28,038 nt of DNA from positions 1 through 28,038 of IMG/VR virus record IMGVR_UViG_3300028610_000790. One strand, written 5' to 3'. The stretch comes from a virus. Both the position numbers and the translations under genes were made by a program. Below, piece by piece: positions 3,885-28,038 of the stretch (within the stretch, counting starts at the first letter, position 1; every line of letters begins with the position of its first letter). The notes under the pieces are model-generated. The model was not told where the DNA came from, did not search any database, and worked only from the letters and a program-made list of their open reading frames with translations.

Positions 3885-3991
3885 CGCACCACCCAAACCG
3901 TCACCACCCAAACGCAACAGGCACAGACAAGTACCACCAAAACGACTGGCATAATCCAGTCAACCCAACTCGTGAATATACCAGGTTTCAT
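3881..3991 (-). CDS. 36-residue single-pass membrane protein
   Basis: Begins MKPGIFTSWVDWIMPVVLVV and continues LVCACCVWVVTVWVVR. Residues 13-35 form one very hydrophobic, valine-rich helix with three Cys. AAGGAGA lies 5 bases before the ATG, and the stop overlaps the methyltransferase GTG (GTGA at 3881-3884). That coupling also fixes the methyltransferase start. Function unknown. Confidence 0.65.
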   Translation of the reverse strand: MKPGIFTSWVDWIMPVVLVVLVCACCVWVVTVWVVR

Positions 3992-4023
3992 TGAGTCTCC
4001 TTGTCGTTCATATTTCTTCCGTA

Positions 4024-4281
4024 TTATGGTTTCCTCATCAAAAACTCTTTATTGCCCAATTTCGATAGGTACTTCAAGATCGAAACCCACCAAGCATGGT
4101 TACAGCGACTGCAAATCAGTTTCAACCCCGACAGCCGTATGCCCAATTCCAGATCACCCCTCGCATAGGCCTGTACGCACTTTATGCTATTGTCGTGATC
4201 TACTGTTACTGTCCTAGTCCTGCATCTGGGACAAGTAGGCGACGGGCTATATGCTCGCATTTGCCACGGCGCGGGACTCAC
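4024..4281 (-). CDS. Zinc-ribbon protein
   Basis: An 85-residue protein with a classic two-knuckle ribbon: CPRC at about residues 17-20 and CSRC at about 58-61, separated by a polar strand-rich region with a further Cys (IKCVQAYA). The C-terminus WWVSILKYLSKLGNKEF is amphipathic. The start is a GTG overlapping the replication gene stop (GTGA) with GGAGGGG 8-9 bases upstream. Being coupled to a replication protein it may bind nucleic acid or that protein, but this is inference. Confidence 0.68.
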   Translation of the reverse strand: MSPAPWQMRAYSPSPTCPRCRTRTVTVDHDNSIKCVQAYARGDLELGIRLSGLKLICSRCNHAWWVSILKYLSKLGNKEFLMRKP

Positions 4282-5138
4282 GGCAAATCCCCTCCAATAG
4301 GGCTGAAGTCTGTACCTGACCCACTCCGGCGTTTAGTGGCATAGTGGGCGTCCTCTTCGCCCGGTGTTAGGTAGTTAGGATATGGTCGCCAATCGTGGCT
4401 GACCTTCTGGCTTTCTGGCTTACCCAGCCAATTGTTGATGAACCGGCCCCAGCGCTTCTTATTGGCCTTTTCCGGATTCCCAATAAGCCAGGCTCGCATT
4501 CGGCCAAGTTCTTGCTTGAGCCACTTCAGGTTTTCAGGAAGGATCAGGCCCGGTCCGCTTGGGTCTTCTCTGATAGATTTAGCCATACTCAGCGCCTTAT
4601 CCCAGTTTTCCCGAACCCAGTCCTCAAAACCGGCAACGCCCGTTTTGACTGGTTTGGATTTCATGGGTCCCGCCATTACTTCTTCTTTTTTCTCATTCTT
4701 TTTCTTATTAACCTTATTGTTTGTGCCGATTCGCTGCCGATTCGCTGCCGATTCGCTGCCGATTTTCATGCCTTTTTTTTCTGGGGCCAGTTGGTAAGTA
4801 TCGTATTCCCTTATGGTTATCATGGTTTTTTGGGTGTCGATTTTGGTGTCGATTTCTGGGGCAATTTCGTAGTTAGGACCCACTAACGGAGTGGAAAGGT
4901 CTTTTAGGTAGTCTTGCACCTTACATCTGGACCAGCGCCAGCGTTCAGCCAGCCCAATCTGAGAGGTTAGTATCTGGCCGCGTTCGATCACGACACGGCC
5001 GACAACCCCGCGTTTATGGTTAGCCATTAATAACAAGTCTATCCATGCCTCGTATTTAGTGAAGGCCCGCTTTTCTTCGAGCGGATAATGTTTCCACTCG
5101 CAAATCTGCCGGTGTAGCGATATCCAGCCACGAGCCAC
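4278..5138 (-). CDS. Phage replication initiation protein, helix-turn-helix type
   Basis: A 286-residue protein. Residues 1-90 (MARGWISLHRQICEW, then YEAWIDLLLMANH and RWRWSRCKVQDYLKDL) resemble the N-terminal winged helix of phage replisome-organiser/DnaD-like proteins. A basic linker around 120-160 (NKVNKKKNEKKEEV) precedes a helical C-terminal part (FINNWLGKPE) typical of the same group. Such proteins bind the origin and recruit host helicase. A GTG start follows GGGGAGG directly after the upstream stop. The linker is encoded by an 11-bp tandem repeat and an A8 run, both prone to slippage. No helicase or loader gene is recognisable beside it; the call rests on domain resemblance. Confidence 0.65.
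   Translation of the reverse strand: MARGWISLHRQICEWKHYPLEEKRAFTKYEAWIDLLLMANHKRGVVGRVVIERGQILTSQIGLAERWRWSRCKVQDYLKDLSTPLVGPNYEIAPEIDTKIDTQKTMITIREYDTYQLAPEKKGMKIGSESAANRQRIGTNNKVNKKKNEKKEEVMAGPMKSKPVKTGVAGFEDWVRENWDKALSMAKSIREDPSGPGLILPENLKWLKQELGRMRAWLIGNPEKANKKRWGRFINNWLGKPESQKVSHDWRPYPNYLTPGEEDAHYATKRRSGSGTDFSPIGGDLP
4725..4764. repeat. 11-bp tandem repeat, 3.6 copies, inside the replication gene
   Basis: GCCGATTCGCT repeats head to tail on the plus strand (4725-4735, 4736-4746, 4747-4757, then a partial copy). It is perfect. Eleven is not a multiple of three, so each copy is read in a different frame (SESAANRQRIG on the coding strand), and gain or loss of one copy would shift the frame. 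A run of eight T (A8 in the mRNA) follows at 4773-4780. Confidence 0.9.
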
Positions 5139-11396: not shown

Positions 11397-11733
11397 GGCC
11401 GGCCTCCGGGGGCTTACTCCAATAGTCCTTGCATTGCTTCTTAAAGGTGGTTAGTCGCTCTTCGGCTTCACGTAACATACCTTCTTGGCGACCAATTCTA
11501 ATCCGGAGATTTTGCGCTGATTGACTTTTCTGTTGAAGTAGATATCCCAGCGCGGCACGGAGGGTAGGCAGATAAGCAGCATCAATCGATTCCTTTGGTG
11601 TGCGGCGAGGCTTGCCAGTATGGTAGCTTTTATCTCCCGCAATATAGATACATGCTTCAGTTTCCTTGTCAACTTCAACTGACTGAGGCCAATCATAGTG
11701 TCTTCTTACTCTCCACCAAGCTTGTGTAGCCAT
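11389..11733 (-). CDS. Hypothetical protein with coiled coil
   Basis: A 114-residue protein. An aromatic, basic N-terminus (MATQAWWRVRRHYDWPQSVE) leads to a short strand region, then a long coiled coil from about residue 70 (YLLQQKSQSAQNLRIRIGRQ, then LREAEERLTTFKKQ). The ATG at 11733 has GGAGG about 8 bases upstream. The reading back to 11832 would run antiphase through the previous gene. Unknown function. Confidence 0.65.
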   Translation of the reverse strand: MATQAWWRVRRHYDWPQSVEVDKETEACIYIAGDKSYHTGKPRRTPKESIDAAYLPTLRAALGYLLQQKSQSAQNLRIRIGRQEGMLREAEERLTTFKKQCKDYWSKPPEAGHD

Positions 11734-11737
11734 CACA

Positions 11738-12082
11738 TCATCCTCCTGCCGGGCCATCGGTTGTGTCTGATCCCGGCTCTGCGTCTTGAAGATTGTGATC
11801 GATGATAAACTCCTCAGCCTCAGCGCCGACAAGGGTATGGGTCATATTGCTGGGGAGATTGACAGTGATTCTGGGCTGGGGGAGTGGGCATTTGGCGTAT
11901 GCTTCCCGAAGCGCGTCACCCAGAGCACCGACGCCATAAAAATGTATTGGCAAGCCGCCGCCGCTCAGATTATAGACTTTTTGGGCCAATAGAGAGAAAC
12001 AATAATTTAGGCTTTCTTCGGCCTCCCGGTACTTTGCTGTCGCCTCTTCAAGGGTCGTGACTATCCGTTCTATCTCACTCAT
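11738..12082 (-). CDS. Hypothetical protein ending TTDGPAGG
   Basis: A 114-residue protein: N-terminal coiled coil (IERIVTTLEEATAKYREAEE), a glycine-rich centre (LSGGGLPIHFYGVGALGDAL) and strands ITVNLPSNMTHTLVG. The C-terminus TTDGPAGG is a copy of the shared junction tail, and the same bases carry the GGAGG site of the next gene. The ATG at 12082 overlaps the upstream stop (ATGA) with GAGG 7 bases before it. Confidence 0.65.
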   Translation of the reverse strand: MSEIERIVTTLEEATAKYREAEESLNYCFSLLAQKVYNLSGGGLPIHFYGVGALGDALREAYAKCPLPQPRITVNLPSNMTHTLVGAEAEEFIIDHNLQDAEPGSDTTDGPAGG

Positions 12083-12675
12083 TCCTTGACCTCACTTTCG
12101 GCAAGCGCGGCCTGGAGCTTCCTGACGGTGGTGAGGTCTGTTATGTATGGCAAATTGGCCTTTATTGCTTCCTCCAACCGCTCGATCTGGGCGGTGAGGG
12201 CGACAATACGCTTATCAGCCTCGACTATCACAATCTTAGCGGGGTCAATTTTAGCTATGTCCAACATAGCCTGCCGGACCTTTCCTGATTGTCGGCTATG
12301 CACAACATATTGCAGGGTGGTCGGTTCAATTAGAGCAGCCCTTTCCTCCAACCGCTCAATCCAGGCGGCTTGCCGCTCGATGGTCTCGGCCATGTCGGGC
12401 GCGGAACGTACTATCCATTCCGCCATTTCGTGGGCGAGGGCGAGAAGATCAGCATTCGCCTTGACTTCTTCCAGTGTTGACTTTGGCGTCGCATTCGTGA
12501 TATATGCGATGGTCCAAGTCATTCCTACTTCTTGACCCGGTGGAAGACAAGTATTGATGGTAGGAGCGTCATTGTCTGCGTTATAGCCTGTTTTATATGG
12601 TCCCGGTGTAGCAATGCCCAACAACTCCCCGATTCTCTGGACTAACTCATCCGGCGTGTGTTTATCTTTGGTCAT
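12079..12675 (-). CDS. Coiled-coil protein, relative of the gene at 15356-15823
   Basis: A 198-residue protein. N-terminus KHTPDELVQRIGELLGIATPGPYKTGYNAD, then NADLLALAHEMAEWI and two leucine-rich coiled-coil blocks (ERQAAWIERLEERAALIE and LTAQIERLEEAIKANL). It ends QAALAESEVKE. The KHT...GP[YW]K block, the N-A-x-L-[IL]-A block and the ALAESE end recur in the protein from 15356-15823, so they are diverged paralogues of a common phage family without a known role. It follows the upstream gene by 12 bases, with AGGAA before the ATG. Confidence 0.7.
   Translation of the reverse strand: MTKDKHTPDELVQRIGELLGIATPGPYKTGYNADNDAPTINTCLPPGQEVGMTWTIAYITNATPKSTLEEVKANADLLALAHEMAEWIVRSAPDMAETIERQAAWIERLEERAALIEPTTLQYVVHSRQSGKVRQAMLDIAKIDPAKIVIVEADKRIVALTAQIERLEEAIKANLPYITDLTTVRKLQAALAESEVKE
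12092..12111. repeat. 20-bp repeat in the paralogue tail, copy 1
   Basis: TCACTTTCGGCAAGCGCGGC here and at 15366-15385 with one mismatch. It encodes the shared C-terminal AALAESE of two otherwise diverged proteins, so this end was either duplicated recently or kept under selection. Confidence 0.8.
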
Positions 12676-12951: not shown

Positions 12952-13143
12952 CTACAGTTGAATGCTGACGTTGCCGTCACTATCAGTCACAGTAGTAACC
13001 AAGTCTGTGACGACAACTACTTGGCCAGTTTCACCGGCGTTGAACCCGTACATCCGATGCAGTTCTTCGGCGTACGACTCAGCCACAGCACCAGTCACTT
13101 CCATTTTGGCATCCGAATCAGATATGATCGTCAGCTTGCACAT
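12952..13143 (-). CDS. 63-residue hypothetical protein
   Basis: Beta-rich (MCKLTIISDSDAKMEVTG, then QVVVVTDLVTTVTDSDGNVS) with a short central helix (VAESYAEELHRMYGF). AAGGG lies 7 bases before the ATG at 13143, two bases after the recT-like stop. Being next to the recombination pair it may be an accessory factor, but nothing in the sequence shows this. Confidence 0.65.
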   Translation of the reverse strand: MCKLTIISDSDAKMEVTGAVAESYAEELHRMYGFNAGETGQVVVVTDLVTTVTDSDGNVSIQL

Positions 13144-13145
13144 GA

Positions 13146-14138
13146 CTAACCCTTCAAAGTCTGCAGGTGAGCGTGGTAAGCGATCAGTTTCTCAGGTTCG
13201 ACCTCTTCATGCTCCAGATCAAGATACCCGACGTGCTCTGTGCGCAGGTCAGGAACCTTCTTGCCCAGCTTGAGCGTTTCCTCAAGGGCTATGATCTCTT
13301 TGGCGAGTTTGACCTTTGACGGCGAACCGTTGCTGGCTTTAGTCTCAAGATCATCGGCCAGCTTCTCGGTGGGCGTTCGTTTGTCAGAGGCCTCGTCGAT
13401 CACTTCGGCAACGACCTCATGTACCGTCTGGGGCGCACCAACAGCCGCTGCATTATCTAAGTCAAGCACGGTGGCAAGTTCGGCTGTCATGGGTAGCAGT
13501 TTACAGAGGCGACGCAGGACCGTCTTCCGGCCCATTTCGTCAAAGTGGTTTGTCCAGGCGTCTTTATCACCACCCGGCGCCTTCTTGCGAATAGCATCTA
13601 CATCCAATCTGGGCATTACCTCAAACTTCGACGGGATGTTCTGGTCCCGGAAATGGGCAATTGCGTAGAAGTAGACACTCTCGCCCCGATTTTCCGGGTC
13701 TTCAAACGGGATATGTACGAGGCCCGGAGTCAACCCGTAGTTGTATGTAAAGCTGTCCTGTTCGTAAACGACTCGCGTCTCAAGGTCGACAATCTCACCT
13801 GATTGCCGCACCTTCTTGGCGAGACCCCGGTAGCCGGGCATCCAGGCGACCTGTCCCTTGAATGGTATCAGGTGACATTCTTGGGCGGGTGTGTCCGGTA
13901 CTAATCCGGTATCAGCACAGTAGAGCAAGGCCGACAACATGCTACCCTGACTACATGCGAGTAGCTTCGGGTTCTTCCGCACCGAATTGACCATTGCGGA
14001 CATCAGCACATCCGGCGACATCTTCCCCTGAATAGCCTTCTCAATATCTGGCCGGAAGCCAGTGAATATCGATCGGCAAGTGGCTATGTCTGTGAGAGGC
14101 TGGTCCGGTCTTAAGGCGACTGCATTATTGTTTGCCAT
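13146..14138 (-). CDS. recT: RecT-family single-strand annealing protein
   Basis: A 330-residue member of the RecT/Bet annealing family, which coats single-stranded DNA left by a partner exonuclease and pairs it with a complementary strand. Seen: LLACSQGSMLSALLYCADTGLVPDT, ECHLIPFKGQVAWMPGYRGLAKKVRQSGEI, the aromatic MPRLDVDAIRKKAPGGDKDAW segment and the GRKTVLRRLCKLLP motif. These follow RecT order over residues 50-230; the rest is a charged, poorly conserved tail. The gene overlaps the YqaJ exonuclease gene by 14 bases, the usual recE/recT-type pairing. AGGTAGG precedes the ATG. Confidence 0.92.
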   Translation of the reverse strand: MANNNAVALRPDQPLTDIATCRSIFTGFRPDIEKAIQGKMSPDVLMSAMVNSVRKNPKLLACSQGSMLSALLYCADTGLVPDTPAQECHLIPFKGQVAWMPGYRGLAKKVRQSGEIVDLETRVVYEQDSFTYNYGLTPGLVHIPFEDPENRGESVYFYAIAHFRDQNIPSKFEVMPRLDVDAIRKKAPGGDKDAWTNHFDEMGRKTVLRRLCKLLPMTAELATVLDLDNAAAVGAPQTVHEVVAEVIDEASDKRTPTEKLADDLETKASNGSPSKVKLAKEIIALEETLKLGKKVPDLRTEHVGYLDLEHEEVEPEKLIAYHAHLQTLKG

Positions 14139-15147
14139 TGGGTTTACCTACCTTTCGTCTTGGGGGTGTGAACCGGCGATATCCCGGCTTGACCTCAGAG
14201 TGATTGGGTAGTATGGACTGTATCTCGGCCTCAACCTCGTCAGGGTCAACCGCGTGAAGCGCAACGGCGTAAGCGACCGCTTTCCAGTCGATCTTAACAC
14301 CGTCCTTTGTCCGCTTCCAGGTGTACCGATACTCTGGACCGCTCAGGACAGAGGCCAACCCCAAGAAGTTCTTGATTTCGTTTTCACATTCGAGCTTATT
14401 GGCTTCAAGCTCGTCGATCTGAGTTCTGAGTTCCAAGAAGCGTGTGGCGAACACGTGAACTGCCTCGTCGGCGAGCTTCTCTTCGTCGACGTGAGAGGGG
14501 TACAAAGCGGCCAGCATCTTCTTGGCCGACTCCGATCCGTCGATCTCCGGTGGGGTTTTTGTCAAAACATGATCCCGCCAGAAATCTCCCTCAATGGCAA
14601 TCAATCCCCGGATCAGCTTGTCATTCCGAGGCACCCGGTAGATTCGGAAATCGTTTCCGCCGATCAGAACCGCAACGTCACACCACTGGCAGTGGGTGAC
14701 CGCCATATAGTGTTGACACTGCAGGTTGTAGGCTTGGGGGATTTCGTCGCTGTCCGGCTCACCCCACATCCAGGCAAACCTGATATCAGTCGTCTTGATC
14801 TCAAGCAGACCTGCCGGCTTCTCGGAACTTCCGTTAAGGACGAACCGGTCGGGGTGCGCAATCATAAAGTCGTGTTCAGGATGCCGAAGCATCGAGGACT
14901 GAGAGAGTTTAGCTCCGCGCTCGTCGGTATACCACTCGGCTATGACCGGCTCTAAGCGAAGCCCCGCCTCCATCCGGTTGCTCATAGCGAGAGGCTCAGA
15001 CAGGCCGAGCTTGTCCATGTAAACATCGTGAGATGTTCCAAAGGGTGACAGGCCGCACAGCTTGGCGGCATCACTCCCACCGATACCAGTCATTCTGTTG
15101 GCCAGAAACTCGGCTCTGGCTTTTGGGTTTAGGATGTCATTTTGCAT
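14125..15147 (-). CDS. YqaJ-type viral recombinase exonuclease
   Basis: A 340-residue nuclease of the YqaJ/lambda-exonuclease (PD-(D/E)XK) family that resects double-stranded ends 5' to 3'. GIGGSDAA (21-28) with SPFGTSHDVYMDK is the family's entry motif. Asp100 (HPDRF), Glu116-x-Lys118 (LLEIK) and the Q143-x-Q145-H-Y-M helix are the catalytic set. The C-terminal third is helical (TQIDELEANKLECENEIKNF) as in longer phage members. ATG at 15147 follows GGGGGAA. With the overlapping recT it forms the phage's end-resection and annealing module. Confidence 0.9.
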   Translation of the reverse strand: MQNDILNPKARAEFLANRMTGIGGSDAAKLCGLSPFGTSHDVYMDKLGLSEPLAMSNRMEAGLRLEPVIAEWYTDERGAKLSQSSMLRHPEHDFMIAHPDRFVLNGSSEKPAGLLEIKTTDIRFAWMWGEPDSDEIPQAYNLQCQHYMAVTHCQWCDVAVLIGGNDFRIYRVPRNDKLIRGLIAIEGDFWRDHVLTKTPPEIDGSESAKKMLAALYPSHVDEEKLADEAVHVFATRFLELRTQIDELEANKLECENEIKNFLGLASVLSGPEYRYTWKRTKDGVKIDWKAVAYAVALHAVDPDEVEAEIQSILPNHSEVKPGYRRFTPPRRKVGKPNGKQ

Positions 15148-15322
15148 GGCTTTCCCCCTTAGTGATAAGTCCAAGAATCGCCAGCGGCACCAATTGGGGG
15201 AGTGCCTTCTCGGCGAGCCTCAGTAGACCCTCCACGTATTCGTCCGGTTGAAGTCTGACTTCTTTGGCGCGATCTTCAAGCCATTCCGAATACGGGGGGC
15301 TGATTGTGATGAGTAGTGGCAT
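15137..15322 (-). CDS. 61-residue hypothetical protein before the exonuclease
   Basis: Begins MPLLITISPPYSEWLEDRAK: a first strand, then helices (LQPDEYVEGLLRLAEKALP), similar in outline to ribbon-helix-helix proteins, then a hydrophobic stretch (LVPLAILGLI). AGGAGG sits 5 bases before the ATG. Its end overlaps the exonuclease gene by 11 bases. A small regulator or a membrane-associated peptide are both possible. Confidence 0.65.
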   Translation of the reverse strand: MPLLITISPPYSEWLEDRAKEVRLQPDEYVEGLLRLAEKALPQLVPLAILGLITKGESHAK

Positions 15323-18995: not shown

Positions 18996-19172
18996 TCAGC
19001 CCTCTTCGTCCTCGGCTTCTTTTGGTGCCTGGGTGTCTACAATTATATAGAACCGGCCAAGTTTCTTCTTGCTGGCGTACATGGTGGCGTGGCCGCTGAA
19101 GACCCGCGCCCCCTCGATTTCGACGAGGTGCTTACCGCGCCGATGCTTGGTCTTTTTCGACTTAGCTTTCAC
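18996..19172 (-). CDS. 58-residue basic protein
   Basis: MKAKSKKTKHRRGKHLVEIE, then GARVFSGHATMYASKKKLGR and FYIIVDTQAPKEAEDEEG: a very basic N-terminus, a beta hairpin and an acidic tail. The GTG start overlaps the metallophosphoesterase stop (GTGA) behind GGGGG. It is the last gene before the early promoter region. Possibly nucleic-acid binding; no family recognised. Confidence 0.65.
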   Translation of the reverse strand: MKAKSKKTKHRRGKHLVEIEGARVFSGHATMYASKKKLGRFYIIVDTQAPKEAEDEEG

Positions 19173-20491
19173 GGCGAAGCCCCCATAAGCTGATTCAAGT
19201 ACCGATCGATGTTCACCTGCAGCCGAGCGATTGGTCCGGCAGAATAGTCCCAGACAAAGGCCATTGTGCCCCGCTTCTGCCAATTGAAGCCCTTAAGTCT
19301 ATGCCACTCATTTGGGGCAACCAGACCGGGGAGGTATTCGACGCTGACGCCCTGTTCTTCCATGGTTGCTAACGTGCTCGATCCCTTCCGGTGCTGATCG
19401 CCCAAATGCCACTCCCTATAACCGTGTTTGGTCGCCAGCCAATGCTCCGGGCATTCATTTGCCATCAGACCGGCCAAGCGGACCGGTTTGACGCTGTGGC
19501 CGTGTTCATATCCAATCAGGTTCACACCGTATCGGTGGAACTTGTAGGGTGACTCATCCGCGTGGACGGTTATGTTCTTGTCTCGCAGGTAGTAAGCCCG
19601 CAAGATTCGACCGAGCATAAATGACGTGGCCCGGTCGTGATTCCCTGGAATTATGTAGACAGTTACCGGGGCCAACTGCTTGAGTTTATCAATAATGGCT
19701 ATTGCAAGGGTCTCACCACCGATAAAGGTGTGCAGGTAAGCATCAGCGTCCGGTTGCCCCGTACCACTTGTCGTGGTCTGCCAAATTGAATCAGAGTGGA
19801 AGAAATCGTTGCCGAGGGGCAGCACAATCTCTTCAAATGGCTGATATGGCTCGGCCAGTCTCAGGATTTCATCAAGGCTGTCCATCACCATAGCCGCACA
19901 CATCTCCGGCGACCAGTCGGCATCGGCGCCCGGCGTGAAACACCGTAGCCCAAAATGCGGGTCCATCAGACAGGGTTCAAGTGAGTGACGGTGGGGTAAC
20001 TTCCCGCGGGGGCGTCGCTTAATAACCGGCACAACCGGCGATTTCGCCCTGAGCTTGTCCAGTAACTGCTCAACAGCGTCTACGACGGACTTCGGGACCT
20101 TCCGTTTCAGCCAAACCTTAATCTGGTAGTTCTGGACCCTTGTGGGCTTGTCAATGTCACCGTCCCGGACTTTCATAGTCACGTCGTAGGCATTGACTAC
20201 AGCCCGCTCGACTTCCCAGATATCCAGGTCGATTTCCGCCCGTTTCAGGGCTTCGTCTACTGTTCTGACATACTGACCGGCAGATTCGATAGTACAGGTA
20301 TCGCGCTGTTCAGTGATCTTACATGACGCACTTGGGTTGTCAACTGCAGTTTGTTCTCGCTTAATCCTGATTAGGCGATCCTGTAGCGTTGTACGCGCCA
20401 GGCTAAGCCGTTCTGCGGCGGTGGTTTTGTTACCGTCACAATCCCGCATGGCCGCAAGAATCTGCTCGTCTGTGTAGTCAGAACATTTCAT
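19169..20491 (-). CDS. Helix-turn-helix metallophosphoesterase
   Basis: A 440-residue protein. Residues 8-42 (ILAAMRDCDGNKTTAAERLS, then LARTTLQDRL) form a Fis-type helix-turn-helix. From about 165 a calcineurin-like phosphoesterase domain carries the two-metal site: Asp177-x-His179 (MDPHFG), Gly-Asn-Asp229, GNHD (283-286), HGH (330-332) and HLGDQH (362-367). The family includes SbcD/Mre11-like nucleases and phosphatases; with a DNA-binding head, a nuclease acting on DNA is the likely role. The first domain's helix may direct it to a site. The ATG overlaps the DUF5664-like gene stop. A long charged linker (50-160) joins the two parts. Confidence 0.82.
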   Translation of the reverse strand: MKCSDYTDEQILAAMRDCDGNKTTAAERLSLARTTLQDRLIRIKREQTAVDNPSASCKITEQRDTCTIESAGQYVRTVDEALKRAEIDLDIWEVERAVVNAYDVTMKVRDGDIDKPTRVQNYQIKVWLKRKVPKSVVDAVEQLLDKLRAKSPVVPVIKRRPRGKLPHRHSLEPCLMDPHFGLRCFTPGADADWSPEMCAAMVMDSLDEILRLAEPYQPFEEIVLPLGNDFFHSDSIWQTTTSGTGQPDADAYLHTFIGGETLAIAIIDKLKQLAPVTVYIIPGNHDRATSFMLGRILRAYYLRDKNITVHADESPYKFHRYGVNLIGYEHGHSVKPVRLAGLMANECPEHWLATKHGYREWHLGDQHRKGSSTLATMEEQGVSVEYLPGLVAPNEWHRLKGFNWQKRGTMAFVWDYSAGPIARLQVNIDRYLNQLMGASP

Positions 20492-20736
20492 AACTCTTTA
20501 TCCAATAGCTGACAACAACGGACAACAATAGCCGCCAGGTGGTGATGACCGTCCTTCTGGTCTAAAGACTCACCTCCCAACCACTTCCCGAGATGGCGCA
20601 GTATGGCTCCGAGATAAACGTCTGAATCTTCCGACGAATCCCAGCCGCCGTATTTCGACATACCAACGTGCAACGCCTTGTCTACTTGTTGCAGAGGACC
20701 ACTCGGCACCACTTTCAACATCAGTTTGCCTGGCAT
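20488..20736 (-). CDS. dATP/dGTP diphosphohydrolase-like protein (DUF5664)
   Basis: An 82-residue protein. KLMLKVVPSGPLQQVDKALH, then VGMSKYGGW and LGAILRHLGKWLGGESLDQK-DGHHHLAA follow the DUF5664 order (P-x-G-P-L, G-x-x-K-Y-G-x-W, L-R-H-L-x-x-W-x-x-G-E, D-x-x-[ST/D]-G-x-x-H-L). The family is related to MazG-like all-alpha NTP pyrophosphatases and includes phage enzymes removing dATP/dGTP. It is short, containing this domain only. I use the ATG at 20736 (TGATG overlap); a GTG at 20739 is equal in merit. It precedes the metallophosphoesterase in the same operon. Confidence 0.72.
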   Translation of the reverse strand: MPGKLMLKVVPSGPLQQVDKALHVGMSKYGGWDSSEDSDVYLGAILRHLGKWLGGESLDQKDGHHHLAAIVVRCCQLLDKEL

Positions 20737-21257
20737 CACAAACTAAACCCCAGCCGTAGGCGAACAGCGTACATATCCGATTTGCCCTGACCGCCGATCA
20801 AATCGCCAGCCAGCCTGACATCAAGCGGACCAGTATCGAAAGACAGCCCGGCCATGAATCCCCAGCGAGTGTCATCATTCCCGCCTGTATTGAAGAAATG
20901 CCAGGCCCCGAGGCCAGATTCAAGGGTAAGTCCGCGCCACACCTGAGCATCTTTTTCGACCAATGCCCGGACAGCGTACATTTCATCAGCACCTTCACCC
21001 CATTGAGCGTCAGAATAAAAGACGGTCGCGCTCCCGTTTTCGACCAGGTCCCTGAGAAACGGCGGTAGTCCTTTCTGAGCTACCCATTTGACCGGACCGG
21101 GTAGCCCGGAGATATCATACCCCAGGGCGTAGATCGGAGTCGGCTCAAAGTCGCCTATCAGCATCCCGAACTCGGCCCCGGCGGGTTTGTCTTGCCCAAC
21201 CGCCGGATTCAACGGTAGTAGGCAGAGGATTACAAAAATTGTGCAAAAGCGTTTCAT
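20736..21257 (-). CDS. Exported beta-barrel-like protein
   Basis: A 173-residue protein with a clear Sec signal peptide (MKRFCTIFVILCLLPLNPAV, cleavage probably after AVG, before QDKP). The mature part alternates polar and aromatic residues (ATVFYSDAQWGEGADEMYAV, WRGLTLESGLGAWHFF, WGFMAGLSFDTGPLDVRLAG) and ends in strand YAVRLRLGFSL, as in outer-membrane barrels. About eight strands fit. It would be exported by the host during infection. ATGA overlap with the holin-like gene. A phage-encoded surface barrel might block receptors or alter the envelope (inference). Confidence 0.68.
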   Translation of the reverse strand: MKRFCTIFVILCLLPLNPAVGQDKPAGAEFGMLIGDFEPTPIYALGYDISGLPGPVKWVAQKGLPPFLRDLVENGSATVFYSDAQWGEGADEMYAVRALVEKDAQVWRGLTLESGLGAWHFFNTGGNDDTRWGFMAGLSFDTGPLDVRLAGDLIGGQGKSDMYAVRLRLGFSL

Positions 21258-21478
21258 TTGCCGTTCTCCTGTTTTTTGACTTTATGGAAGATGTCGGCCA
21301 CGTAGTAGCCAATCACCATCAGCGCGATAACCACATCGGTGACGTTGGTTGCCAGTTCTTTGGCGTGTAAGAGATAGATTGTCCCCAGACCGGCAACGGT
21401 GACCAGGAACTTTGTGCCCTCCTGTGGCTGTACCAGATTCTTGATTAGATCAAGAAATGGTTGAATGTAATCCTTCAT
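21254..21478 (-). CDS. Holin-like two-pass membrane protein
   Basis: A 74-residue protein: a short amphipathic start (MKDYIQPFLDLIKNLVQ), a first helix (FLVTVAGLGTIYLLHA), a second (VVIALMVIGYYVADIF) and a charged tail (HKVKKQENGK). Size, two helices and basic C-terminus fit a class II holin, which would release the nearby NlpC/P60 enzyme. The ATG at 21478 has GAGG 10 bases upstream; the ATG at 21487 is too close to it. It is the first gene after the candidate promoter at 21541-21569. Confidence 0.62.
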   Translation of the reverse strand: MKDYIQPFLDLIKNLVQPQEGTKFLVTVAGLGTIYLLHAKELATNVTDVVIALMVIGYYVADIFHKVKKQENGK

Positions 21479-21495
21479 TGTTTCCATACCTCGCG

Positions 21496-21531
21496 TTAAG
21501 CGTTTGCGGTTATTTTGTTGACTATCTTGAC
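21496..21531 (-). pseudogene. Relic of the C-terminus of the zinc-finger gene at 5579
   Basis: 31 of 36 bases match 5579-5614, including the stop codon. It still reads VVKIVNKITANA-stop against VIKIVDEIIANA-stop. An in-frame stop lies just upstream and no start with a ribosome site is present, so it is a fragment of a lost paralogue placed 18 bases before the holin-like start. Confidence 0.75.
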
Positions 21532-21540
21532 CACACGGTC

Positions 21541-21569
21541 AGTCTGCCACTGTTAAATATCTGTGTCAA
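21541..21569 (-). promoter_or_regulatory. Candidate promoter of the holin-metallophosphoesterase operon
   Basis: TTGACA (21569-21564) with a 17-base spacer and a poor -10, CAGACT (21546-21541). GCAAAAAATCC lies upstream as a possible UP element. The stretch from CCTTGAC to TATTTAACAG resembles the region at 731-756, and TTGACA-x-GATAT resembles the promoter at 18830-18858. Confidence 0.4.
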
Positions 21570-21587
21570 GGATTTTTTGCGGTCCCG

Positions 21588-22025
21588 TTAGACTTCTATG
21601 AATAAGTTGATATATCTCGGTTCGCTACTTCGGTGGTCAATCGGGCGGAGCTTGATAAAGGCGTTGTACTTGATTGCGTCTTCAAGGCCCCTGATCCGCT
21701 TACCCCCGCCATCAGCGGTTAAACACACTTCACTACTGAGACAGACCGCTATGTGGATTGCCTTCCCCGCACCGTTGAACCAAAAGACCAGACAACCCCG
21801 CTCCGGTTTCTCGACTTCGTAGATACCGTGGAACTTATGCCAGAGCCCATCGGCCGAAAAGTCCCGGTGGATCGGTAGGGCCCCAACTGATTTCAGGCCC
21901 TCAACCACCATGCCGCTACAGTCAAATCCCGCCATTGGGTCGTCACCGCCCCAGAGGTACGGCGTGTTTATTAGGGTCTCCACGTACTTCAGAAACCAGC
22001 GCTTTGCCGCAATTAGAGAAATCAT
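21588..22025 (-). CDS. NlpC/P60 cell-wall peptidase
   Basis: A 145-residue single-domain NlpC/P60 hydrolase, which cleaves the D-Glu to diaminopimelate type of bond in peptidoglycan. TPYLWGGDDPMAGFDCSGMV gives the catalytic Cys36, GKAIHIAVCLS gives His91, and LTADGGG (about 103) the third position. There is no signal peptide, so it would need the holin or a virion to reach the wall; position beside the fibre-like gene fits a tail-associated lysin, and the holin-like gene downstream fits an endolysin. The ATG overlaps the upstream stop (TGATG) with AGGGGG 5 bases before it. Confidence 0.85.
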   Translation of the reverse strand: MISLIAAKRWFLKYVETLINTPYLWGGDDPMAGFDCSGMVVEGLKSVGALPIHRDFSADGLWHKFHGIYEVEKPERGCLVFWFNGAGKAIHIAVCLSSEVCLTADGGGKRIRGLEDAIKYNAFIKLRPIDHRSSEPRYINLFIEV

Positions 22026-24898
22026 CAATTCCCCCTCGCCAGTATCGTGTCGCCGATGTTGACAGCATCTTGATCGGGCACGTAGAACCGTTTGACCTCG
22101 AACAATTTCTCCCCGCCAAAGGTGCCGGTGATATCATAATAACCCTTGTCTGGGTCGGCGTAGTCGGCGGTGCGCCGTAGTTGTAGCTGGAACACTCCAA
22201 TCGAATCGGCCAATATCGACACGGGGGTAACCCCGACAATGACGGTCGAACTCGTGGTGTCGATACCGACCTGCCCACGAACCCTGATCGCCTCAACTAC
22301 CGCGCCAACGTAAGCCTCACCACGAGAGTTTTCAAGGATACCGTTGACGTTACAGAGGTTGGGCGCACCCGGAGCATCAACCGCCCAACCGTAGCCCGCC
22401 ACCTCCACGGAGTCGTCATTTCCACTCGCGGTCAGAGCGTAAGATTCAAAGATGTAACCCGTCTTGCGCGGCACGACAGTATAGGAACCATCTGAGAGAT
22501 GGACCGTGCGTGTGCCCGTAGCTGTCTCGCTGGCGAATGCCATAATAGGTGTTCCGACACTGTTTTGAATCGAGAAAAACACGTCACCTATCGGCGTGTC
22601 TGTTCCGCTGGTATCGTTGAAATACAGAACAAGCGCATCTGGCCCGAATCCCTGACTTGATACAGCATACCCGGACTCGGTGGTGTCAGTTGGGATCGTA
22701 ACCCAAACGCCCTGCGAGTCAGCCATTAGTTGTTCCAGTGCACCGTAAGCGGCCATGGAATCAAGGCCAGCAGCGGAACCCTGATACCCAGTCGAGTCAG
22801 CGGCAGCCCAGTCGTCGGGCATGAAGGCGACAAGTTCGCCATCTTGGAGGGTGTCATCAGGAATTACAGCAGCATCAAAATATCCACGCCCTGATGCTCC
22901 AAGTCTCCAATCAACTCCTGTAGCAGATAAATGATCAACCCAAAAAGCGGGTGATGTTGAACTCGCTCCTGCTATAATCTCAAAACCACTACGATTATCA
23001 GATTTCGTCCAAAAACCAGAACCAGTAGCACCTCTGCCTTGGGCGACAATAGCATGTCCCTCACCAGTTGGTCCACCTTGAAAATAGGCGGCATAACTGC
23101 TTGAACCTAAAGCATGAAAGTAAGCGGCATCTCCAGAAGTTGCACCGCCACTCATTGTGAATCCTACGCCTGTGGCCGATGCTGCAAAGACTGTTCCTGA
23201 ATCAACAGTAAATGAACGATAATTTATTTGTCGTGTGCCAGCTTCTAATGTATCGCCAACCGCATCGGCTATCTCTTCTTTTGTAAGCCCACTCGCCGAA
23301 CCTTGGAACGCGGACGAGTCTCCAAACCGCGCTAATGTATCACCATCCGCATTTACTGGAGACGCTATCGGATGGCCACCAGCGTCGACATTTATACTCG
23401 TATCAGTATCCAATCGAGCGAAGTAATTGTTTATCAGCATAAGCAACATGGCCACTGTATCGGCCTCAACAATTTGTGTAACGGCGGCTGGATGTATAGA
23501 TGCAACATGAGTCGCCGCCGCTGGTAGAATCTGATATTCTGAAGTAGCATCAGGATTCACAAACCAATCATCACCAACATATAGTGTTATTGAATCAGTT
23601 GCGCCGGTAAAATCTTCTATATGTTTAGATTGGCCATCACCAGTTCCACCGATAATTGTAATCATGTTTTCATTGAAAAAATCATCGGCTCGGCTGGTCG
23701 CGGCAGCCAGGATAATATACGTAGCTCCGCCACCTTGTGCTTCGCCTTCAGCAAGCGCACCAAGACCCGCTAATTCGCGCAATAGCTTACCCGAACTGGT
23801 GGCTATGTTGTGTGTAGCACCCGTTAGAATGGCATCCCATGTTGATAGATTTGAGTCGGGTAAAACCGCCGTGACATCGGTCTCTAAATTAAGAGCATCA
23901 TCGTCAACTGAGGCCACATTGACCCCACCCCACGGCAAAATACGAAGCGAGTCCCCCGTTCCCGGTGTACCCGTTAAGGCGGGAGTAAACAGTATCCAGC
24001 CGTTAGTACCGTCGTAGTCCGTGATGAGCCGAGCCTCAGACTCCTCGGTGCCAGTCATAAACAACACCAGTTGACCGTTGTAATGGTTGTCGGTTGCTTC
24101 GGCCAGGTTTGTCTGAACGCGAGTCGTGTTGTTGCCCGTAGAGTCTTCCACAACTCCACGTGGCGAAAGCTGATCCCAAACACCGTCAGCAATTTCCCGT
24201 ATTCCCGTGACGCTAAGTTCATCGCTTCCGATACAGGCCGTCCCCAACTGGCTGGACGTGATGACGTTTGCCGACATGGCCGCTACGGTTACGGTAATGA
24301 GTTCTACCTCGGCATCTGACAGAGTGCCCGTTATATCGTTGAAGTTAACACCAATATTGTCAGTAACCACCAAGACTGAGGCCGCCCTTTGAATTGTATC
24401 ACCAATAGCATCACGTCCGGCCAGTGTCCAGTTCTCTCGGTCGTCCAGTAGGTCCTTGCTACCCTGCGTCGTATCCTTGATAATAGCGAGGTCGTTGAAT
24501 GTCTGCTCCACTCCAGCCGTCACACCCCTGAGCGTGTAATTGTAGTTGGAAAATAGGTCAATGTCATTTTGAGCATCAGACGCTATCGTTACCATGATAC
24601 TGAAAACACCAACGCTGGCCGCCCCGTTGATATCTTCCCATTGGTCAGAGAATGTGATAACATCACCATTAAGGGTAGCTTGGTCATCAGCATCCTCAAA
24701 CCACGCATCAAATAATTCCGTCTGTGCAGAATCTGACACTACAATTCTTATAGAATCGGGGGTCAGCCGCGTACGACCCAGGGTATCTGACGGATTGCCA
24801 CTGATGACAACGTACTCGGCCTCCGTGACTATAAAATCTTCAGCTAATACGGAGACACAGAATGCCAAAAGAATCATTATCGTCCGTAGATATTTCAT
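22025..24898 (-). CDS. Large exported fibre/adhesin-like protein
   Basis: A 957-residue protein with a Sec signal peptide (MKYLRTIMILLAFCVSVLAE, likely cleavage after VLA). The body is Ser/Thr/Asp/Gly-rich beta structure. LFMTGTEESEARLITDYDGT and the TGATHN...SSGKLLREL block resemble modules of phage tail/appendage proteins. Residues about 560-690 form a Gly/Ala-rich segment. The last 110 residues (NVNGILENSRGEAYVGAVVE) resemble a carboxypeptidase-regulatory beta-sandwich. A Sec signal on a fibre is odd, as virion parts assemble in the cytoplasm; a host-surface adhesin is the alternative. The part near 22870-23650 looks richer in A/T than its flanks. GGAGAAGG precedes the ATG. Confidence 0.75.
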   Translation of the reverse strand: MKYLRTIMILLAFCVSVLAEDFIVTEAEYVVISGNPSDTLGRTRLTPDSIRIVVSDSAQTELFDAWFEDADDQATLNGDVITFSDQWEDINGAASVGVFSIMVTIASDAQNDIDLFSNYNYTLRGVTAGVEQTFNDLAIIKDTTQGSKDLLDDRENWTLAGRDAIGDTIQRAASVLVVTDNIGVNFNDITGTLSDAEVELITVTVAAMSANVITSSQLGTACIGSDELSVTGIREIADGVWDQLSPRGVVEDSTGNNTTRVQTNLAEATDNHYNGQLVLFMTGTEESEARLITDYDGTNGWILFTPALTGTPGTGDSLRILPWGGVNVASVDDDALNLETDVTAVLPDSNLSTWDAILTGATHNIATSSGKLLRELAGLGALAEGEAQGGGATYIILAAATSRADDFFNENMITIIGGTGDGQSKHIEDFTGATDSITLYVGDDWFVNPDATSEYQILPAAATHVASIHPAAVTQIVEADTVAMLLMLINNYFARLDTDTSINVDAGGHPIASPVNADGDTLARFGDSSAFQGSASGLTKEEIADAVGDTLEAGTRQINYRSFTVDSGTVFAASATGVGFTMSGGATSGDAAYFHALGSSSYAAYFQGGPTGEGHAIVAQGRGATGSGFWTKSDNRSGFEIIAGASSTSPAFWVDHLSATGVDWRLGASGRGYFDAAVIPDDTLQDGELVAFMPDDWAAADSTGYQGSAAGLDSMAAYGALEQLMADSQGVWVTIPTDTTESGYAVSSQGFGPDALVLYFNDTSGTDTPIGDVFFSIQNSVGTPIMAFASETATGTRTVHLSDGSYTVVPRKTGYIFESYALTASGNDDSVEVAGYGWAVDAPGAPNLCNVNGILENSRGEAYVGAVVEAIRVRGQVGIDTTSSTVIVGVTPVSILADSIGVFQLQLRRTADYADPDKGYYDITGTFGGEKLFEVKRFYVPDQDAVNIGDTILARGN

Positions 24899-25485
24899 TT
24901 ACCTTCTCCTTCTTTTATTCTCCTGACATAGGAAATGTCCGCCACACCCGTCACTGTATATGTCACGTAAATCGAAACTCGAGTGGAGTTATCATTAACA
25001 GACCCACCAGACCAGGGATCATCCAAGGTGCCAGCATCGGCTGTCAGGATTCTACTGTACCCGGTGGCATCCGTATAAGCTATTCCAGTAAGAGTAGCGC
25101 TCTTGTTACGAACACCAAGCCAGTAATCGGTACTGCCGGTTAGCGTCGCACCTATAGCGGCCTCCGCTGATATCCACGATCCCCCAGTGGCGGAAGTGGT
25201 CCCGACTGCACTATCAACAACTACGTCCGGTGAATTGGAATCGTCTGAGTAAATGAACAAAGTTACATCGTCATCACCATCCCAGTTGGTCCGCATGAAG
25301 GCCGTGATACTATCTACCGTTCCACCGGTGGCCCCCATAGTAAACTTAGTTGCAATCTTGTTGTTGCCCGTAACATCGTCCAACACAGCATAAGACCCGC
25401 CCGCCGATGTTTGTCCGAACGTGGCGGCCAGAGTCGTACCAGCTAACGACGTAATCATCAGAATTATCAGCAAGCGTAGTGTCAT
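24895..25485 (-). CDS. Exported beta-sandwich protein
   Basis: A 196-residue protein with a Sec signal peptide (MTLRLLIILMITSLAGTTLA, cleavage before ATFGQ). The mature part has the pattern of bacterial surface sandwich domains of the choice-of-anchor kind: FTMGATGGTVDSITAFMRTN, DDVTLFIYSDDSNSPDVVV, then WISAEAAIGATLTGSTDYWL. The C-terminus is basic (YVRRIKEGEGK). It overlaps both neighbours by 4 bases, so it is made together with the fibre-like protein and the dockerin-like protein; a secreted complex is possible (inference). Confidence 0.7.
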   Translation of the reverse strand: MTLRLLIILMITSLAGTTLAATFGQTSAGGSYAVLDDVTGNNKIATKFTMGATGGTVDSITAFMRTNWDGDDDVTLFIYSDDSNSPDVVVDSAVGTTSATGGSWISAEAAIGATLTGSTDYWLGVRNKSATLTGIAYTDATGYSRILTADAGTLDDPWSGGSVNDNSTRVSIYVTYTVTGVADISYVRRIKEGEGK

Positions 25486-25910
25486 CGTATAAACAGTCTC
25501 CAGATAAGTGGGGCTATGTCGGATATTGATACTCGCCCGTCCCGGTTCACGTCATACGGATCAAGGTGATGCATAATAATAGGATTCAGGGTCCACGAGC
25601 CCGCCGAGTCAGCGAGTATTATCGTAGTAGTCCACACCCTGTTACCAAAGCGAGTATACCCGAACTGAGCCACAATAGTATCTTCCGCCTCCCCTCCGCT
25701 ATCCAGCCATGAGTAGACCACCAGACTTTCGGGGTAGCAGGCACAAATCGTATCGTAGGTCTCTACAATTGGGACCTTCACACTATCGATCAATACGAGG
25801 TCTTGCCCGAATGATTTGCCCGCAAGAACAGCCAGCACCACGAAGAATACGGCGAACATCACGAAGAAGATGTACGCCCTGTCTTTTCTGTTTTGTTTCA
25901 TTTGTTTCAT
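25482..25910 (-). CDS. Exported or anchored protein with dockerin-like loop
   Basis: A 142-residue protein: basic start (MKQMKQNRKDR), hydrophobic helix (AYIFFVMFAVFFVVLAVLAG) and a possible signal-peptidase site at SFG-QD, then a beta-rich domain with a Cys pair (TICACYPESL). Near the end DVNRDGRVSISDI (120-132) is a dockerin/EF-hand calcium loop, but only one copy, where type I dockerins have two. The ATG overlaps the upstream stop (TAATG) with GAAGG before it. Single dockerin-like loops of this kind end many secreted proteins of FCB-group bacteria, a hint to the host. Confidence 0.68.
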   Translation of the reverse strand: MKQMKQNRKDRAYIFFVMFAVFFVVLAVLAGKSFGQDLVLIDSVKVPIVETYDTICACYPESLVVYSWLDSGGEAEDTIVAQFGYTRFGNRVWTTTIILADSAGSWTLNPIIMHHLDPYDVNRDGRVSISDIAPLIWRLFIR

Positions 25911-26152
25911 TAGAGTACCTTCCATGCCGCGAGTGCAAGACCCGCCAGCGCTAAAACTACTGAAGCCAACTTGCCGCCACCGATCCATCTTTGACGCCAA
26001 GCCCAAAGCGTTCTGATCTTGCTGTTCTGCTCCACGCGGACAACGTGACTGAGATCGCGTGTCTCGACGTATGTGAATTCCTGTATTTCCCGACTGGACA
26101 GCCTCTTGGCGTCTGTTAGGTATTGAGCGCGACGTGTCGTTGTTTCGTCCAT
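25910..26152 (-). CDS. Tail-anchored small membrane protein
   Basis: An 80-residue protein: helical charged N-terminus (MDETTTRRAQYLTDAKRLSS, then REIQEFTYVETRDLSHVVRV), basic RTLWAWRQRWIGGGK and a single C-terminal transmembrane helix (LASVVLALAGLALAAWKVL). This layout matches XhlA-like/holin-accessory proteins. The ATG overlaps the stop of the large virion protein gene (TAATG). Next to the export/lysis block a second holin component is plausible but unproved. Confidence 0.65.
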   Translation of the reverse strand: MDETTTRRAQYLTDAKRLSSREIQEFTYVETRDLSHVVRVEQNSKIRTLWAWRQRWIGGGKLASVVLALAGLALAAWKVL

Positions 26153-28038
26153 TATCTCGCTTTCTTTGGGGGCCGCTTTACCTTTGAAGTTGGCATACCG
26201 AAGAACGGCAGGGTGGCCCCCCAAGCTGTTTTCCGGCCAGCTTTCCAGTCTAAGAACTGGTTAAATGTAATTGGTGTACCAACATCAAAAACATAATCTC
26301 TTGTGCGTTTTGGTAGGTCCCAGCCCTTATAGCGTGAACCAAACCCGGAACCGACGGGGAGTTGAGCTAAGAGTGCAGACATGGCGGGCGACAATTTGTA
26401 GGACAGCTTCGCGGCCGGTTTCGCGCCCCATTCTGCTACCTCGAAGACAGACTTGAGTGGGCGGACATAAGCGGGTCCCCCACGGATGGTCTTTGTTTTG
26501 CCGCTTTTGTCGGTGGTCTTGTAATCGGGCGCGTCCCACCATGCACGAACAGCGAAGCCCTTACCTTCGGGGTTTTCCCAGAGATGCTTACTCTTGCCGT
26601 CTGCCTGCTGTGTCATCATATAGTTGTACAGATCAGCAGCCCCGACCATCAATATGCCACCAAGGGCATAACGTCGGTACTTTGATTTGATCGGGCCAAT
26701 CTCTCCCAAACGTAGTCTGCGGATCATCTTGTCGGTCATAAACGATTTAGCTACGTTTTTGGCGACAAGCAAATGCTCTCGTTGCCACGTCGGAGATAAC
26801 AACATACGTTGCCACCACCTACGAACATCCGGTTCAAAGTACGCCTTCACCATCCAACGATTCGTTTCAAGTAGTGACCGCTTGTAGTGTTCGCCGGAAA
26901 AGTGACCGTCGGCCTTCTTGACCACATCGCGGGCGCACTGTTCTTTAGTTAGCCCCTTCTTGAGATATTTAGGGAGCAACGCGTTGTACGTATCCACCGC
27001 AAACGATGTCTTCATGCCCGGCTGAACAACATCGAAGATGAAATCACGCATGATCTTGATAGGATATGTGGCGATGTTGCCCGCCTTGCCCGCCGGACTC
27101 GCACCCTCAAAGAACGAGTTCCGATAACCCACATCCTCATAGCCCTTAAATAATTCCAACCCCTCTTGGTGTAGTAGTCGCACGGTCGGGTCGAGTTGTC
27201 TGCGGAGTCTAAGGCCGCGCCTGATATTGAAGAACGGCACCCGGAGATTGGCGGCCTCCTGCGCCCCCAATGACATGACGTGGAAAAGACTGACACCCAA
27301 CTTCAATGACTTTGTGGCAAAGTTTAGTTGGTCGAGCTTGGTATAAGTTGGACTCTCCAGGTATGCCTTCACGAACGGGGCCAGGTCTGTGCGGACGCCG
27401 ACTGCGCCACGGAGTCGAACCAACGTGCCATCGGCGGACCTGAAAGTTAGCGGCTTGTCAAGTGCGTCGTGTGAATACCGCTCATAACCCTCGGTCAAGC
27501 CCTGCTTCTTTAGTTGGTCCCACCGCTCAATCATGCGAATCGGTCGGGGTTGTCCGGCCTTAGTGAGTTGGATCATCCCCTCTTTGGCCGCCCCGACACT
27601 GTGCAGGGTCTTAAACATCTCGCGGGACTGGTGCGCCCGCATGACCGATTCCCAGCTTTTACCAATAATCTCGCCGAGATTGGTACTGGCAGGGGTTAGA
27701 CCCTTCGCCATCCCCGCCTCAAAAGTTGGAATCTTGCGTTGCTTAGCGAGTGGCGTTGTCTTAGTAAACTTACCGTACATGAAGTCGAACGGCTTGCCGG
27801 ACTTGGGGTTAATCCACCAGTGGGAGATATGGTGCATCCCCTCCGGCATTTCAAGCCGGTCAAGAACCTTGTGTTCGTCAATAAACCTGTCGAGTTTGCC
27901 CTTTTCCTTGAGCGCCCACTCGACCATGCCACGCTCAGCCTCGGTCATCTGTCGCCAGTATTTGCTTTTTCTGCCCTGCTCAAAGGCGTGGAGCATCAAC
28001 ATCTGGCGGCTGTCCGTTAGTGTCTCTCCCTTGATCTT
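26152..28038 (-). CDS. C-terminal part of a large phage protein, cut by the right edge
   Basis: 629 codons to the edge with no stop, so the true start is outside; an ATG at 28002 is in frame but lacks a ribosome site. The sequence is basic, helical and aromatic (SRQMLMLHAFEQGRKSKYWR; FKTLHSVGAAKEGM; LNFATKSLKLGVSLFHVMSL; KMIRRLRLGEIGPIKSKYRR), with a short hydrophobic stretch (LGGILMVGAADLYNYM) and a Lys-rich end (SKVKRPPKKAR). This looks like the tail of a large polyvalent or internal virion protein delivered with the DNA. No catalytic motif is visible. Identification is by overall character only. Confidence 0.7.
   Translation of the reverse strand, partial: KIKGETLTDSRQMLMLHAFEQGRKSKYWRQMTEAERGMVEWALKEKGKLDRFIDEHKVLDRLEMPEGMHHISHWWINPKSGKPFDFMYGKFTKTTPLAKQRKIPTFEAGMAKGLTPASTNLGEIIGKSWESVMRAHQSREMFKTLHSVGAAKEGMIQLTKAGQPRPIRMIERWDQLKKQGLTEGYERYSHDALDKPLTFRSADGTLVRLRGAVGVRTDLAPFVKAYLESPTYTKLDQLNFATKSLKLGVSLFHVMSLGAQEAANLRVPFFNIRRGLRLRRQLDPTVRLLHQEGLELFKGYEDVGYRNSFFEGASPAGKAGNIATYPIKIMRDFIFDVVQPGMKTSFAVDTYNALLPKYLKKGLTKEQCARDVVKKADGHFSGEHYKRSLLETNRWMVKAYFEPDVRRWWQRMLLSPTWQREHLLVAKNVAKSFMTDKMIRRLRLGEIGPIKSKYRRYALGGILMVGAADLYNYMMTQQADGKSKHLWENPEGKGFAVRAWWDAPDYKTTDKSGKTKTIRGGPAYVRPLKSVFEVAEWGAKPAAKLSYKLSPAMSALLAQLPVGSGFGSRYKGWDLPKRTRDYVFDVGTPITFNQFLDWKAGRKTAWGATLPFFGMPTSKVKRPPKKAR

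Follow-up and report, generated by a model that had tools for sequence, protein, structure and literature searches.

Predicted Sec signal peptides across the tail module of an uncultivated SU10-like podophage clade suggest that its tail proteins are exported

Here we describe a clade of SU10-like podophages, known from metagenome contigs alone, that appears to export its tail module via Sec, with the tails joining the heads once the inner membrane opens, a reading in which we place moderate confidence. Export and signal-peptidase cleavage of the tail-module proteins are strongly indicated by the sequences; that the tails assemble in the periplasm and join the heads late is hypothesised on top of this. 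The window, that is, the whole stretch of DNA analysed, is the complete 28,038-bp IMG/VR record IMGVR_UViG_3300028610_000790, and its phage is best explained as part of this uncultivated clade.

A profile scan found a second record, IMGVR_UViG_3300028610_001249 (here L029), whose last 60 bases match the first 60 bases of the window's minus strand (27979-28038) exactly. These final 60 bases of L029 code for the first 20 residues of an ejection- or internal-virion-type protein (26152..28038, minus strand; at least 628 aa, no signal) whose 5' part lies off the window record. Since such an exact 60-bp overlap of contig ends is what one assembly graph split in two would leave, L029 and the window are probably halves of the same or a near-identical phage with a genome of about 50 kb. 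The window record itself has no capsid gene; L029 encodes an SU10-type capsid protein, an adaptor 1 without signal, an adaptor 2 with a predicted signal (MKRWKLVVAILLLPLVVCG/NSYL, the slash marking the predicted cleavage here and below) and a 944-aa protein in nozzle position, likewise with a predicted signal (MSRLVSSFLLVLLVASGVRA/EERL). A borderline score for the gene following the capsid gene in L029 (1936-2721) depends on an internal start and was judged a false positive.

A sequence-only reading of the window had proposed four genes with Sec signals, and this proposal holds: the four minus-strand ORFs (20736-21257, 22025-24898, 24895-25485 and 25482-25910) are present, and among the 43 window genes of at least 100 aa exactly these four are given predicted Sec signals by a home-made, rule-based scorer, the rules being a charged n-region, an uncharged h-region and small residues at -3/-1. 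Signal calls throughout combine this scorer with reading of the sequences, and by both the four N-termini have the n-h-c layout of Sec and signal peptidase I substrates. Two signals that the scorer missed, on the 561-aa and barrel-like proteins of the relative G023, were accepted by inspection. Shine-Dalgarno sites stand before three of the four signal ATGs in the window, and no signal-skipping internal start in these genes has such a site; with the relatives included, 15 of 25 signal-peptide starts carry a strict Shine-Dalgarno motif, and 22 of the 25 genes have no signal-skipping start with one. Chance or annotation artefact, in the form of wrong starts or spurious hydrophobic leaders, draws on occasional false positives of the scorer on other phages and on one in L029, but this explanation is refuted for practical purposes, its remaining probability being negligible, by the Shine-Dalgarno placement, by a control in which 2 of 1336 internal Met positions passed the scorer, and by signals that recur, slot for slot, among several diverged phages.

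The four genes, all on the minus strand, differ in kind. At the end of the tail module lies a 173-aa barrel-like protein (20736..21257; signal-peptide score 7.45; Shine-Dalgarno site), whose signal peptide (21195..21257) is predicted to be cleaved after residue 21 (MKRFCTIFVILCLLPLNPAVG/QDKP) and whose signal-bearing counterparts occupy the same slot in the relatives G003 (L026:13659-14141) and G023 (L040:207-707). It has no family match in Pfam or NCBIfam, its AlphaFold model, from an alignment of few sequences, reaches a pLDDT of 32, and the barrel-like proteins end in Leu, whereas outer-membrane barrels usually end in Phe. The 957-aa putative fibre or adhesin (22025..24898; score 7.28; Shine-Dalgarno site) has a signal peptide called by the scorer at 24842..24898 (MKYLRTIMILLAFCVSVLA/EDFI). 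It shares segments with fibre-block proteins elsewhere, its partial relatives being found in G023 (1105 aa, with signal), in G003, and in L001 and L002 (no signal), but it has no match in Pfam, PHROG, NCBIfam or named phages.

The third gene (24895..25485; score 6.39; signal peptide 25426..25485 by the scorer, MTLRLLIILMITSLAGTTLA/ATFG) encodes a 196-aa protein matching the choice-of-anchor R surface-protein domain NF041539 (7e-8, 32.6 bits against a cut-off of 30), in accord with the earlier description of a beta sandwich. Its signal-bearing counterpart in G003 (L026:11083-12273; 396 aa, 26% identity) has an additional DNRLRE domain (NF033679), so that both proteins match bacterial surface families above cut-off; unlike typical members of these families, they are encoded in a phage fibre block and lack a recognised C-terminal anchor. 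The fourth, a 142-aa protein (25482..25910; score 8.65), has a signal peptide at 25806..25910 with cleavage placed at residue 30 or 35 by scorer and sequence reading (MKQMKQNRKDRAYIFFVMFAVFFVVLAVLAGKSFG/QDLV), but translation could also begin at an ATG at 25925 or a TTG at 26006, which leaves its start codon uncertain. The dockerin-like character ascribed to its C-terminus is weak and partial: the Dockerin_1 match (E 0.008, 16.7 bits against a cut-off of 22.9) covers profile positions 36-53 only and does not comprise two repeats.

Further genes lie among and beside these on the same strand. A 77-aa membrane protein (21254..21487), holin-like by inspection of its translation, resembles a G023 protein (L041:6984-7337) by eye and has no Pfam match. 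An NlpC/P60 peptidase without signal (21588..22028; Pfam 2.4e-9; phrog_329, minor tail protein, 1.6e-15) is a probable endolysin or tail-associated peptidase, and a 104-aa protein without signal (25910..26224) has, from its translation, one C-terminal transmembrane stretch. The ejection-type protein has relatives in G003 (62% identity) and G021 (54%), the former matching the internal virion protein family phrog_342 weakly. Beside the module, an 83-aa ORF at 20488-20739 consists of a dGTP_diPhyd_N domain on its own (Pfam 7.9e-14) and adjoins an HTH-metallophosphoesterase exonuclease (19169-20491); in G023, too, these two genes come after the barrel gene.

The relatives carry signals in corresponding slots. 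In G003, three small genes lying between those for portal and scaffold bear them, as do adaptor 2, the nozzle and three fibre-block genes, which include the counterparts of the 196-aa and 173-aa window proteins; its tailspike (L026:5290-10701), whose start is unclear, was excluded from the count. G023, with the gene order of G003, bears signals on a post-portal gene, adaptor 2, the nozzle, and 561-aa, 216-aa, 1105-aa fibre-type and barrel-like proteins. In the truncated contig G025, adaptor 2, the nozzle and two post-portal genes are signal-bearing. Two short contigs add two signal-bearing genes after the portal (L051) and one such gene (MKKYLFLFLLLLPVMVSA/NDV, L048). The 48-kb contig of G023 encodes near-identical residues at both of its ends (L040 1-210, L041 7334-7537) and may thus represent an almost complete, terminally redundant genome.

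In a portal tree, all six signal-bearing phages group together with support of 99/99, apart from G021, from phages of the L055-L062 type and from named phages; because L048 was unlabelled in it, the tree's own count of signal origins is uninformative. The signal-bearing proteins have diverged to 20-40% identity across these relatives, with signals kept slot by slot, and inert signals would not be expected to persist over such divergence, which argues for export. The signals of the window genes look genuine and are conserved by slot, and on these two grounds export is well supported.

That these phages are SU10-like is indicated by several genes. The SU10-type capsid family PF17236 (SU10_MCP) is matched in G003 (3e-27), G023 (3e-34) and L029 (1e-11), and PF24175 (SU10_adaptor) matches two of four adaptor-2 proteins, at best with 7e-12. 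This best match, in G003, begins at residue 49, behind a predicted cleavable signal, and makes the G003 adaptor 2 the clearest case for reading these N-termini as export signals. Adaptor 1 of G003 matches SU10_adaptor just under the cut-off, and profiles of adaptor 1 and adaptor 2, compared by hhalign as a test of paralogy, do not match, so that speaking of two adaptors relies on the Pfam matches to both genes in G003. The nozzle is assigned from gene order after the adaptor and a single PHROG match (phrog_511, 1.5e-9); its profile matches known nozzles weakly (probability 40%), its AlphaFold model, from three sequences, has a pLDDT of 28, and profile searches of the PDB gave no credible relative, for the nozzle or otherwise. 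Among named phages, nozzle, portal and adaptor 2 found no match, and terminase and capsid found distant matches only. In each genome a single gene is found with the nozzle profile, which leaves no signal-free spare nozzle from which virions could be built.

The nearest structural model is the tail of Escherichia phage SU10 and the Kuravirus group, with which the clade shares the capsid and adaptor families and the order of adaptor, nozzle and ejection-type proteins. In SU10, a single adaptor ring (gp11) joins the portal (gp6) to the nozzle (gp17) (PMC9509320). The clade differs in having two adaptor-type genes, one of them signal-bearing, in bearing signals on adaptor 2, nozzle and fibre-block genes, and in a nozzle whose similarity to that of SU10 is undetectable by sequence.

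The signals are confined to one side of the particle. In the stretches read in the clade, the genes for terminase, portal, scaffold, capsid, adaptor 1 and ejection-type protein showed none. Outside the clade, the adaptor-slot and nozzle-slot genes of G021, which has a 54%-identical ejection-type protein, have no signals, and by the same scorer the tail genes of G031 and of named SU10-capsid phages have none. A general occurrence of signals on tail genes of Bacteroidota phages was not borne out by the two phages tested, Cellulophaga phage phi38:1 and Salinibacter phage M8CR30-2, which had no tail-gene signals apart from one internal-start score in a minor tail protein. Cysteine content is higher in the signal-bearing proteins than in head-side proteins (0.85% versus 0.30%), but an argument for export from disulphides was dropped, as signal-free nozzles are similarly Cys-rich.

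The hydrophobic N-termini might, instead of being export signals, be propeptides of the tail proteins, either structural or removed by a protease. A prohead protease has been proposed to account for apparent signals on major capsid proteins of Porphyromonas phages (PMC10367356), which gives the explanation a precedent; however, no prohead protease was recognised on inspection of the structural block of G003 and G023, the head proteins lack such N-termini, and the full n-h-c layout, cleavage motif included, recurs directly before the start of the domain in proteins as unrelated as the adaptor, the beta-rich nozzle and the fibres. We regard propeptides as quite improbable.

Signal-like leaders were also seen in other phages. 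L009 (5594-8870), an unrelated phage, has three adjacent tail-block genes with signal peptides, one of them Cys-rich, so exported tail-block proteins may occur outside the clade too. In another lineage, L001 bears signals on an esterase-like gene directly after the portal (3673-4515) and on a gene (14727-15320) after the capsid-position gene; the capsid-position ORF itself (12969-14711) appears by eye to be interrupted by an insert resembling an intein or homing endonuclease (LLGVFLGDGS motif). In L006, another phage, the gene at 11593-12336, which directly follows a capsid-type gene in the virion block, opens with a leader resembling that of type IV prepilins (KRIRGFSLLEIMFIVVILAV), an export signal of another kind.

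The sequence-only reading had taken the four window genes for a secreted host-surface apparatus. Its export signals are well supported; its separateness from the virion is not the favoured reading, since adaptor 2 and the sole nozzle-position gene, both expected virion parts, bear the same type of signal, and no sign was seen of the four genes forming an apparatus apart from the tail module. A non-virion apparatus displayed on the cell, for superinfection exclusion, adhesion or receptor masking, would account for the signals on all four window genes and for the bacterial surface domains of the 196-aa protein and its G003 counterpart, and it has a precedent in lambda Lom, an outer-membrane barrel encoded between tail genes (PMC12309495). 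Against it stand, besides the adaptor and nozzle signals, the segments of the 957-aa protein that recur in signal-free fibre-block proteins of other phages, and we consider it unlikely. For individual proteins the case is different: a host-surface role apart from the virion is plausible for the 173-aa barrel-like protein and possible for the 142-aa dockerin-like protein. Like Lom, the 173-aa protein is small, signal-bearing and encoded beside tail genes, and it may be a separate outer-membrane protein of this type; unlike the case of Lom, a single accessory protein, the whole tail module is signal-bearing here, and the barrel fold is putative.

Exported tail proteins would have to meet cytoplasmic heads, and for this we tentatively propose a morphogenesis in two compartments, the simplest scheme that would bring the two together and one that we hold with less than even confidence. 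The tail module (adaptor 2, putative nozzle, spike or fibre, and accessory surface proteins) would be made as Sec precursors, each passing into the periplasm, the host being probably diderm, and losing its signal to signal peptidase I. The head, comprising portal, adaptor 1, capsid, DNA and ejection-type proteins, would be built and filled in the cytoplasm, while the tail proteins would fold, and probably pre-assemble, in the periplasm, a compartment that we infer for this host. Once a holin opened the inner membrane, whole periplasmic tails (adaptor 2, nozzle, fibres) could join DNA-filled heads, the junction lying between the signal-free adaptor 1 and the signal-bearing adaptor 2. That there are two adaptor-type genes, and that the signal boundary runs between them, is in keeping with this periplasmic-tail model.

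Filamentous phages, whose coat proteins are exported by Sec and assembled at the membrane, offer a point of comparison, in that virion proteins are made as Sec precursors (here as predicted from genes); the clade differs in being dsDNA tailed phages with a cytoplasmic head and signals on tail-module proteins only. They also lend some credit to a variant in which the signals tether tail proteins to the inner membrane, with tail assembly and late cleavage beside membrane-docked heads, so that virions would mature at this membrane and not from free periplasmic tails. The same signal sequences are compatible with such tethers, but small residues at -3/-1 at most sites indicate ordinary cleavage and no assembly or secretin-type gene was seen on inspection of G023 stretches, which makes tethering improbable.

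Regarding the host, Gln occupies position +1 in about 8 of 27 predicted cleavage sites in the clade, by our own count. In Bacteroidetes, most signal-peptidase I substrates have Gln at this position (the Q-rule), and the observed share, above expectation for Proteobacteria and below the Q-rule, is a weak hint at a host of Bacteroidetes or a related phylum. Two lipoprotein-like genes, seen on inspection close to the G023 lysis block, hint at a diderm host. No related prophage turned up in two scans of genome contigs.

The nearest precedents that we found for the exported proteins are lambda Lom and proteins of Porphyromonas phages. The Nixviridae of Porphyromonas gingivalis, siphovirus-type prophages, carry five genes of unknown function with Q-rule signals (PMC10367356), and thus, like the clade, encode proteins whose Sec signals are adapted to the host and in some cases expose Gln; unlike in the clade, their adaptor and nozzle are not reported to bear signals (PMC10367356). 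In the open papers searched with specific words, we came across no mention of signal-bearing adaptor or nozzle genes. The accepted view is that tailed phages build head and tail entirely in the cytoplasm, and we know of no tailed phage that assembles from an exported tail and a cytoplasmic head. If true, a Sec-routed tail would be a new assembly pathway for tailed phages, raising the question of how the tail meets the head across a membrane. It would also be evidence that secretion signals can be acquired by conserved genes of the virion, and it carries a warning for annotation: a signal peptide does not exclude a role in the virion.
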